DNA of 64,000 nucleotides from Commensalibacter melissae (GTDB lineage Bacteria > Pseudomonadota > Alphaproteobacteria > Acetobacterales > Acetobacteraceae): positions 1,294,501 to 1,358,500 of the forward strand of contig NZ_CP046393.1 of the NCBI RefSeq assembly GCF_009734185.1, given 5' to 3'. Shown in pieces: positions 1-16,225 of the stretch (position 1 is its first letter; each line of letters opens with the position of its first letter). The position numbers were made by a program, and so were the translations under genes. The notes beneath the pieces were generated by a model that worked only from the letters and a program-made list of their open reading frames with translations, was not told the DNA's origin and made no database searches.

Positions 1-46
1 GTATACGCTGGTTGACAGCATTATTCTCAATCTGAATTTTACTCAT
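1..46 (-). CDS. 5' end of an unknown gene cut by the window edge
   Basis: Only the first 15 codons are visible; the product begins MSKIQIENNAVNQRI. Its ATG overlaps the TGA stop of the COX1-like gene in an ATGA arrangement, which usually means translational coupling and a partner in the same complex or pathway. No good Shine-Dalgarno is seen before this ATG, which fits coupling. Too little sequence is present to name a family. An oxidase subunit or maturation factor would fit the context, but that is only a guess. Confidence 0.5.
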   Translation of the reverse strand, partial: MSKIQIENNAVNQRI

Positions 47-1374
47 CTGTTTTGCTTGTTTGCAGTAAACATGGGAGAAGGCAATTTCCATTCATTCGTG
101 ATTGCACCTTTACCCCAATAATTGGCTACAGGTTTAACCACGTTATAAAATATGGCATTGATAATCACACCCTGAAAAACAAATATGGATAGTCCCATAA
201 ATATGTCACCCCAAAAAACTGTGTTTCTACCTAATGGGATTATTTTCAATGTCAGAACAATTCCAATCATTGTAATCACAAAATGTGAAATTCCCATTGA
301 TTCTGAATATTGTTTTCCAAAAATTTTACCCATCCAAAAATAAAACCCTGCAAAAATTGATAATATAATTGCATAAGTTAGAGTTGAATGAATCTGATTT
401 ATTCCTTGAATTAATCCTTTATATGGCCAAGCAAAAAGTAAAAGGAACAAGCAACCCAACGACCATAACATAGGCGTTGATATGTTTTTTAAGCCTGTTT
501 TAAACAAGTTCAATGCAAAAATACTTAAAACACATATCAATCCATATAAACCAACAGCAAATATAGTTTCGATGTTCACAAATGAATCTGTCTGAAAGTA
601 GACTTCTGTAAATATGGATTTATTCCAAAATAAAAATAATAGAAGAGAGAATGCTGTTGTAATGCCAATTAATAAAATTTTATCCGATTTGATTCTGTTT
701 TCCGAGATTGTCTGAAAAATATGAAATAAGATACCAAATGATGGCAAGATTAAAACTACAACCATGGGAAAAACGAAATTTTTTACAGTTTGTGAAATCG
801 CCCAATCCAACTGCATATTATAATTGAAATAATCTCGTGTTAATATTCCCAATAATATTGATCCCACTCCCAATAAAAAACTCGCACTTATAACATGCAT
901 CCAGGCAAATAGGGGAATTGAGTAATATTTAATATCCTGCCCACGATTATTAATAAAAGTAACAAGGACATTAATTGAAAATAAAACCGCACCAATTGAC
1001 CAAAATACCAGGCTTATCAAGCTCATCAATCCAGTTTCTGAATTAAAAAAGGAAAAAAAATTAAAGAAAAATCCCGTCCATAATAAAATGATAGAAAGGA
1101 TATTGACTAATGGAAACGCAAAATTTCTACTTCCAATTAAAACAGGAAAGAACCATGAACCGAAGGCTACCATTAATGCTGGCTGTAAGACAAAAAAAAC
1201 CATCATTCTGGCATGAGTCTGGAAAATGTTAATGGTGGCAGTTTTGTCATGAATTTGAAATAATAAAGGTAGAAATTCATTCAGTTGGTAATATAAAGCG
1301 GTGATCCCTCCACTTAATCCTGCCAAGATAGCCAAAATAATGGCACTCATTCCTACTTTATAATTGATTTTCAT
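43..1374 (-). CDS. Heme-copper oxidase subunit I-like membrane protein lacking the binuclear centre
   Basis: 443 residues and about 12 hydrophobic segments, collinear with cytochrome c oxidase subunit I (family usually 520-560 aa). Matching landmarks are THARMMVFF near 53 (THGLIMIFF in COX1), FGSWFFPVLIG near 71, a STPMLW segment near 299, IFAGFYFWMGK near 340 and a C-terminal EWKLPSP. His54 and His329 match the two low-spin heme ligands. The active-site residues are changed: the CuB HPEVY motif is FPMVV (202-206), the HH pair is Glu-Val (257-258), and the heme a3 His is Gln327. The D-channel Asp is Asn84. Oxygen reduction is therefore unlikely. It may be a heme-binding electron carrier, sensor or assembly protein. 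It lies 38 bases after pmtA and is clearly more AT-rich than it (16/60 GC at 301-360 and at 601-660, against 29/60 at 1621-1680). Confidence 0.75.
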   Translation of the reverse strand: MKINYKVGMSAIILAILAGLSGGITALYYQLNEFLPLLFQIHDKTATINIFQTHARMMVFFVLQPALMVAFGSWFFPVLIGSRNFAFPLVNILSIILLWTGFFFNFFSFFNSETGLMSLISLVFWSIGAVLFSINVLVTFINNRGQDIKYYSIPLFAWMHVISASFLLGVGSILLGILTRDYFNYNMQLDWAISQTVKNFVFPMVVVLILPSFGILFHIFQTISENRIKSDKILLIGITTAFSLLLFLFWNKSIFTEVYFQTDSFVNIETIFAVGLYGLICVLSIFALNLFKTGLKNISTPMLWSLGCLFLLLFAWPYKGLIQGINQIHSTLTYAIILSIFAGFYFWMGKIFGKQYSESMGISHFVITMIGIVLTLKIIPLGRNTVFWGDIFMGLSIFVFQGVIINAIFYNVVKPVANYWGKGAITNEWKLPSPMFTANKQNR

Positions 1375-1412: not shown

Positions 1413-2051
1413 CTATCTTTCAAAACTAACCAAAGTAAATAATCCTAAAGGCGGAACCGAATTTACTTCAGCCCTTTTTAACACTTCTGGTGGTAACAAG
1501 GACTGAATGGCAAAATCGGGATGCCAACCCAATGCCTTGGAGGCAGGAGCCATAATTCGTTCAACATATGACCGGAGTCCTTTTTGAGCTATAAAATGAT
1601 TCACAAAAAGAATATGCCCACCAGGCTTCACTACACGTTGTAATTCCTTAAACAATCGGTCTGGATGAGGCACAACCGAGGCAACAAACATGCCGACCGC
1701 AATGTCAAAAGAATCCGTTTCAAAAGTCGTTGCTTCAGCATCCATTTCCAACAATGCATCAACATTATCGATTTTTTCTTTTTTCACACGCTGTTTGGCC
1801 TTTTCCAGCATATCGGTTGAAAGGTCAATACCCGTCACTCTTTTATCATTATGATAAGAAGGTAAAGCTAGGCCAGTTCCGACACCCACCTCTAATATTT
1901 TTTTCCCCGGTAAAGAATTAACCTTTTCAACGGCACATCGTCGGCCAAATGAAGAAACTGTACCAAAAACAGTATCATAAACCTTGGCCCAGCGACGATA
2001 GGCAAGCTTAACTGCATCTGCATTTAAGGCAGTATGAGGTAAAGGAGACAC
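1413..2051 (-). CDS. pmtA: Phosphatidylethanolamine N-methyltransferase (PmtA type)
   Basis: Class I SAM-dependent methyltransferase that converts phosphatidylethanolamine stepwise to phosphatidylcholine at the inner membrane. The SAM loop reads LEVGVGTGLALP, followed by GIDLS, MDAEA and a VVKPGGHILFVNHF strand, in the pattern of the Rhodobacter-type PmtA. I place the start at the GTG at 2051, because GGAG (2059-2062 on this strand) lies 7 bases upstream. This gives 212 aa beginning VSPLPHTAL. A longer frame would need a TTG at 2081. It is probably cotranscribed with the COX1-like gene. Phosphatidylcholine is a major lipid of acetic acid bacteria. Confidence 0.82.
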   Translation of the reverse strand: MSPLPHTALNADAVKLAYRRWAKVYDTVFGTVSSFGRRCAVEKVNSLPGKKILEVGVGTGLALPSYHNDKRVTGIDLSTDMLEKAKQRVKKEKIDNVDALLEMDAEATTFETDSFDIAVGMFVASVVPHPDRLFKELQRVVKPGGHILFVNHFIAQKGLRSYVERIMAPASKALGWHPDFAIQSLLPPEVLKRAEVNSVPPLGLFTLVSFER

Positions 2052-2285
2052 GCTATTGCTCCAAATTTGGTGAAATAACAAAATAATACAAAAATAACAC
2101 CTTATAATCCAATTTCACAAAAATAGAAATTTTTTTTATTTATCTTAAAATTAAAGTATTATTTTTTATAATTTTTCTTTGGATAATCAAAATTCATCGA
2201 ACACTCTTTATTGTTTCCCGAATTATGTCTATACTCCATTTTGTTAACAAATTAAATAAAATATAATTAGGACTTAAGCGTTAAA

Positions 2286-16134: not shown

Positions 16135-16225
16135 TGGCGGAGAAGGTGGGATTCGAACCCACGGTACGCTATTCACGCACGGCGGTTTTCAAGACCGCTG
16201 CCTTAAACCACTCGGCCACCTCTCC
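16135..16225 (-). tRNA. tRNA-Ser(TGA)
   Basis: 91 nt including an encoded CCA. The acceptor stem GGAGAGG pairs with CTTCTCC (one G-U), discriminator G. The anticodon stem GCGGT/ACCGC encloses loop CTTGAAA, with anticodon TGA at 16189-16191 on this strand, reading UCA codons. The long variable arm (GTGCGTGAATAGCGTAC) and the T-arm with GGTTCGAATCC confirm a class II serine tRNA. No integrated element or attachment duplication is seen beside it. Confidence 0.97.

Follow-up and report, generated by a model that had tools for sequence, protein, structure and literature searches.

A COX1-derived protein encoded beside ctaB in acetic acid bacteria retains both low-spin heme histidines

Matsutani 2014 is reported to have expressed the CtaB protein of Acetobacter pasteurianus in Escherichia coli and to have found that the function of ctaD was lost through accumulated mutations. 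PMC10715153, which cites that study, describes for Acetobacter a relic resembling COX1 that lies next to CtaB, is without any metal-cofactor-binding residues and probably stabilises CtaB. According to PMC5158111, ctaB and ctaD are neighbours in A. pasteurianus, where the 'deranged COX1-like protein' is APT_01775, and PMC6915089 presents the CtaB of this species as functional. The gene described here shares its locus type (ctaD beside ctaB) and its bacteria with the deranged protein of Acetobacter spp., and the clustering of the COX1 relic with ctaB in 76 of 76 loci agrees with PMC10715153 on the locus. The two descriptions differ in the residues that remain: in print all metal-binding residues are lost, whereas the present relics keep both low-spin heme histidines in every one of the 76 distinct members. 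We found no report of this retained histidine pair in the open-licence literature. The gene is already known; its reading as a bis-histidine heme protein is new. A sequence-only reading of the DNA knew of no described function for such a form, and on this point it was nearly right; the family is, however, already described in PMC10715153, where stabilisation of CtaB is put forward as its structural function.

The window, which is the whole stretch of 64,000 nucleotides that was analysed, corresponds to C1:1294501-1358500 of a Commensalibacter melissae genome (G000) consisting of a single contig of 1.96 Mb. The relic lies at one end of it (Table 1) as an uninterrupted open reading frame on the minus strand, in keeping with the intact frame that had been described earlier with no strand given. 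The methyltransferase-like gene upstream gave phospholipid N-methyltransferase PmtA as its best NCBIfam match, far under the cut-off. Such a gene lies just upstream of the relic in all eight Commensalibacter loci, and several further genera have one there too.

Table 1. Positions of the relic gene, its neighbours and the codons discussed in the text (window coordinates)
Feature	Position	Strand	Remarks
COX1-derived relic protein, 443 aa	43..1374	-	Intact ORF and Pfam COX1 match
ctaB (heme O synthase), first bases, ATG 46-44	1..46	-	Remainder past the window edge, below 1294501
ATGA: ctaB start overlapping the relic stop codon (ctaB ATG 46-44, relic TGA 45-43)	43..46	-	
SAM methyltransferase-like gene, same strand, upstream of relic	1413..2081	-	NCBIfam comparison
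His54 codon, ancestral low-spin heme ligand, helix II	1213..1215	-	Kept in 76/76 distinct members
His329 codon, ancestral low-spin heme ligand, helix X	388..390	-	Kept in 76/76 distinct members
Trp158 codon	901..903	-	Invariant, 76/76
Trp250 codon	625..627	-	Invariant, 76/76; alignment anchor for the lost HH pair (canonical WAHH motif)
FPMVV (202-206) replacing oxidase HPEVY; first CuB His and Tyr gone	757..771	-	
Lys252-Ser253 replacing the oxidase CuB pair HH	616..621	-	
Gln327 replacing the heme a3 His	394..396	-	
Asn84 replacing the D-channel Asp	1123..1125	-	

The relic is a homologue of COX1 along its whole length, as had been proposed from alignment by eye. It matched PF00115 (COX1) with an E-value of 2.1e-26 and a score of 93.2 bits, where the cut-off is 34.8, and the PDB COX1 chain 7jro_a was matched at 8.6e-25 with the single relic sequence and at 2.6e-88 with the family profile. 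Profile-profile comparison (hhalign) of the relic family with COX1 gave a probability of 100 and an E-value of 2.9e-84 over 434 columns. The Pfam, family-profile and profile-profile scores rule out a chance similarity between membrane proteins. Against the equivalog model for CtaD_CoxA (TIGR02891) the relic scored 96.2 bits, under the curated cut-off of 670.75, and a domain search of all 443 residues returned PF00115 only, with no signalling domain. The likeness to subunit I of the aa3 cytochrome c oxidase (CtaD/COX1; PF00115, TIGR02891) comprises full-length homology, hydrophobic segments that merge, by eye, into twelve regions, the low-spin heme histidine pair and the ctaD-ctaB gene order. 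In contrast to subunit I, the relic is without CuB, the heme a3 ligand, the active-site tyrosine and the K-channel lysine, and the loop with the propionate arginine pair is deleted. In a tree of 39 relic and 26 other rows, the relics fell outside one supported oxidase clade; several branches were very long, CyoB was misplaced and composition differed, so that the tree carries little weight. The position of the relics, on which we lean little, is consistent with a single origin beside the Lichenicoccus-type oxidase L089.

Which ligand positions serve heme a, heme a3 or CuB was taken from established knowledge of the aa3 oxidases. Alignment to COX1 placed His54 and His329 of the window protein at the two low-spin heme positions and bore out the replacements of HPEVY, the heme a3 histidine and the D-channel aspartate that had been read from the letters. 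The one reading that did not stand concerns the HH pair, for which Glu-Val (Glu257-Val258) had been given; this was an alignment slip, since the family and profile alignments, anchored on Trp250, put Lys252-Ser253 there. The broader statement that the low-spin ligands are retained and each oxygen-site ligand is replaced is true of the window protein by alignment.

We then compared the relic across genomes. Loci were found by a relic profile match or by the position of CtaB, a way of picking that broken copies elsewhere could escape; of 93 loci scanned, 91 had a match and two (L190 and L199) had none. Four matches were removed, three of them ordinary oxidases retaining HPEVY and HFHY (L195, L197 and L198) and one a 78-aa fragment at a contig end (L176). 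The remaining 87 sequences reduced to 76 distinct ones when the first 20 residues were ignored, and these came from 18 genera, including Commensalibacter, Novacetimonas and Gluconacetobacter. Eleven of the 76 belong to genus g55, which we take to be Acetobacter because the PurE protein of one of its genomes (G199) shows, by eye, one difference from PDB 1u11, presumably an Acetobacter protein. Presence or absence of the relic was scored on no more than four candidates from any one genome, which leaves an absence short of airtight, and in one genome (G062) ctaB lies at a contig edge where a relic is not judgeable.

Both low-spin heme histidines were retained in all 76 distinct relics, the 11 Acetobacter rows included; free variation at these two residues had been named as grounds for rejecting the heme-site reading, and the opposite was seen. 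The oxygen-site residues, in Rhodobacter numbering, were retained as follows (n = 76): of the CuB histidines, His284 in none, His333 in 33 and His334 in four; the cross-linked Tyr288 in none; and the heme a3 ligand His419 in two. Counted per relic, 38 had none of the four oxygen-site histidines, 37 had one and a single relic had two, which was the maximum. The K-channel lysine was present in none of the relics and the D-channel aspartate in 18. Only four of the 399 columns scored were invariant, namely His54, His329, Trp158 and Trp250. Mean entropy was lowest in helices II (1.67) and X (1.76) of the twelve, with helices I (1.78) and V (1.81) close behind and helix VIII at the top (2.55). The heme pocket is nonetheless altered, since the arginine of TM I that contacts the heme a formyl group is kept in only 8 of the 76 and the arginine pair near the heme propionates is absent from all of them.

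For the members used, the frames were open over ∼400–480 aa. In 86 of the 89 within-genus pairs, the relic gave finite dN/dS values of 0.057–0.391, the other three pairs having saturated dS and many of the 86 a dS near or above 1; six of the 76 rows, having no genus label, were left out. In the same pairs the values for ctaB were 0.006–0.166, below that of the relic in each of the 86. Purifying selection therefore acts on the relic, though less tightly than on ctaB, a comparison based on dS and as such unable to tell apart selection for mere hydrophobicity. Selection on the low-spin heme site is well supported by the aligned sequences. The open frames, the invariant histidine pair and the dN/dS values rule out neutral decay, and they uphold, together with the loss of oxygen-site histidines, the sequence-only reading of a repurposed rather than decaying gene.

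The gene that follows the relic is ctaB, identified as heme o synthase by NCBIfam with 326.8 and 325.2 bits, over the cut-off. In 76 of 76 loci a candidate start codon for ctaB is found no more than 13 bases from the relic stop, and in 52 of these the two genes overlap by four bases (50 by script; L057 and L077 from the printed bases). The canonical set comprised 67 ctaD loci, of which eight had no ctaB on the same strand within reach; among the other 59, where one has its ctaB 4.9 kb away and many are near-alike Pelagibacteraceae, the four-base overlap occurred once, in a comparison whose counts ignore relatedness. Adjacency by itself proves nothing, because the ctaD-ctaB order was inherited from the oxidase operon. 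The order is old, and the tighter coupling in the relic loci looks new. CtaB scored over the cut-off in 15 of 16 genomes searched, with one copy each, which in the carriers is the copy beside the relic. The six of 46 genomes with no CtaB match likewise gave no relic and no CyoB-class match. In one genome (G107, genus g101; locus L190) CtaB is present and no COX1 relic lies upstream, which is a separate loss of the oxidase. This genome also gave no match to SURF1 or Cox11, and its congener G174 has a COX1 of canonical length, SURF1 and Cox11.

We also searched the carriers for oxidases and their assembly factors. A CyoB-class protein, classed by PF00115 score and length, was present in 26 of 26 carriers. 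CyoB, the subunit I of the bo3/ba3 ubiquinol oxidase, is of the same superfamily as the relic and differs from it in being a separate gene with HPEVY intact. In the window genome the CyoB-class subunit (G000:C1:1246256-1247596) and the relic (1294546-1295874) lie ∼48 kb apart; the distance is similar in several other carriers, for example G007 and G015. It is probably this bo3/ba3 oxidase that uses the heme O supplied by CtaB. Searches for heme A synthase (ctaA) gave no match in 14 of 26 carriers, and those for the b subunit of cytochrome bc1 gave none in 6 of 27. The relic is thus independent of both, and a general role in support of cytochrome bc1 or of heme A synthesis is rejected. Since the relic occurs where heme A synthase was not found, its ligand is likely to be heme B or O. 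Cox11, the CuB chaperone, and SURF1 (PF02104) were found in none of the 27 carriers searched, in contrast to genomes with an aa3 oxidase: both assembly factors were found in all seven comparison genomes with a canonical COX1, verified by HPEVY in three and by COX1 length in the other four, with internal stops in the SURF1 of one (G075). SURF1 is a heme chaperone of cytochrome oxidase, and a possible likeness to the relic would lie in the task alone, that of keeping heme for an oxidase, with no sequence relation shown.

We propose that the gene is a former ctaD, encoding subunit I of an aa3 cytochrome c oxidase. The acetic-acid-bacteria lineage would have lost the oxidase, CuB and heme a3. The subunit itself would have been kept as a membrane protein of 12 helices, with the low-spin heme site and its histidine pair in helices II and X as the one cofactor site predicted to remain. 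The relic would most likely bind one heme, B or O, and work with CtaB from the next cistron, for example by accepting heme O, keeping it or delivering it for use in the bo3/ba3 ubiquinol oxidase. To this reading, of a former ctaD turned into a bis-histidine heme B or O protein that acts together with CtaB and perhaps stores or delivers heme O, we give somewhat less than an even chance, judging from sequence. The narrower version is possible and rather doubtful: a one-heme hand-over protein that would receive heme O from co-translated CtaB at its low-spin site and deliver it to the ubiquinol oxidase. In the handling of heme it would thereby take the place of the assembly line that was lost with the cytochrome c oxidase. 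Several points count against the main reading. The genome G107 has CtaB and no relic, and the loss of SURF1 is seen there as well; to our knowledge, E. coli makes its bo3 oxidase with CyoE and no relic-like partner; and the relic evolves faster than ctaB. The functional CtaB of A. pasteurianus, as given in PMC6915089, weighs on the same side.

The retained site is the electron-carrying one in oxidases and both of its ligands are invariant, as would suit a single-heme electron carrier between ubiquinol or a periplasmic donor and another protein. Such a carrier is nevertheless unlikely: the relic shows no tie to cytochrome bc1, ctaB is its only coupled partner gene, the methyltransferase upstream would be an improbable redox partner, and a single heme confined to one membrane half could presumably not move electrons across the membrane. 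The proposal of PMC10715153, a scaffold free of heme by which CtaB is stabilised, would fit the coupling to ctaB in every locus, but it would leave unexplained why just the two low-spin histidines are invariant while the four other metal-binding histidines drift, and the statement in that paper that all metal-binding residues are lost is contradicted by the present sequences; we regard such a scaffold as quite unlikely. A polytopic protein with an isolated bis-histidine heme could respond to redox state or heme supply, and translation is coupled to that of heme O synthase, yet a membrane sensor of redox, oxygen or heme level is very improbable given the lack of a signalling domain and of any adjoining regulator. 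The fast evolution of the relic relative to ctaB would suit a decaying pseudo-oxidase kept open only through its place before ctaB, for example by translational coupling, and the accumulated mutations to which Matsutani 2014 reportedly ascribes the loss of ctaD function would too. However, the frames are open, dN/dS is low and the two ligands are invariant over 18 genera, and translational coupling requires an open frame, not two specific histidine codons; this explanation has hardly any probability.

If the site holds heme, a member of a respiratory-enzyme superfamily would have lost its catalytic centre and kept only the electron-carrying heme site as its working part, and such preservation would extend across an entire group of bacteria that industry uses. 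The 'derelict' gene would then become a test case for the delivery of heme O to an oxidase. The sequences also correct the statement printed in PMC10715153 on what the relic has lost, since both low-spin histidines remain.

The window genome encodes a third PF00115 protein (772-aa frame; G000:C1:253912-255261), which is not of the CyoB class and lies outside the window. It resembles proteins of 785–833 aa that are the sole PF00115 match in G060, G146 and G096, and its length suggests a putative quinol nitric oxide reductase. Within the window, the sole tRNA and sole Rfam match is a tRNA-Ser with anticodon tga, at 16135-16225 on the minus strand.
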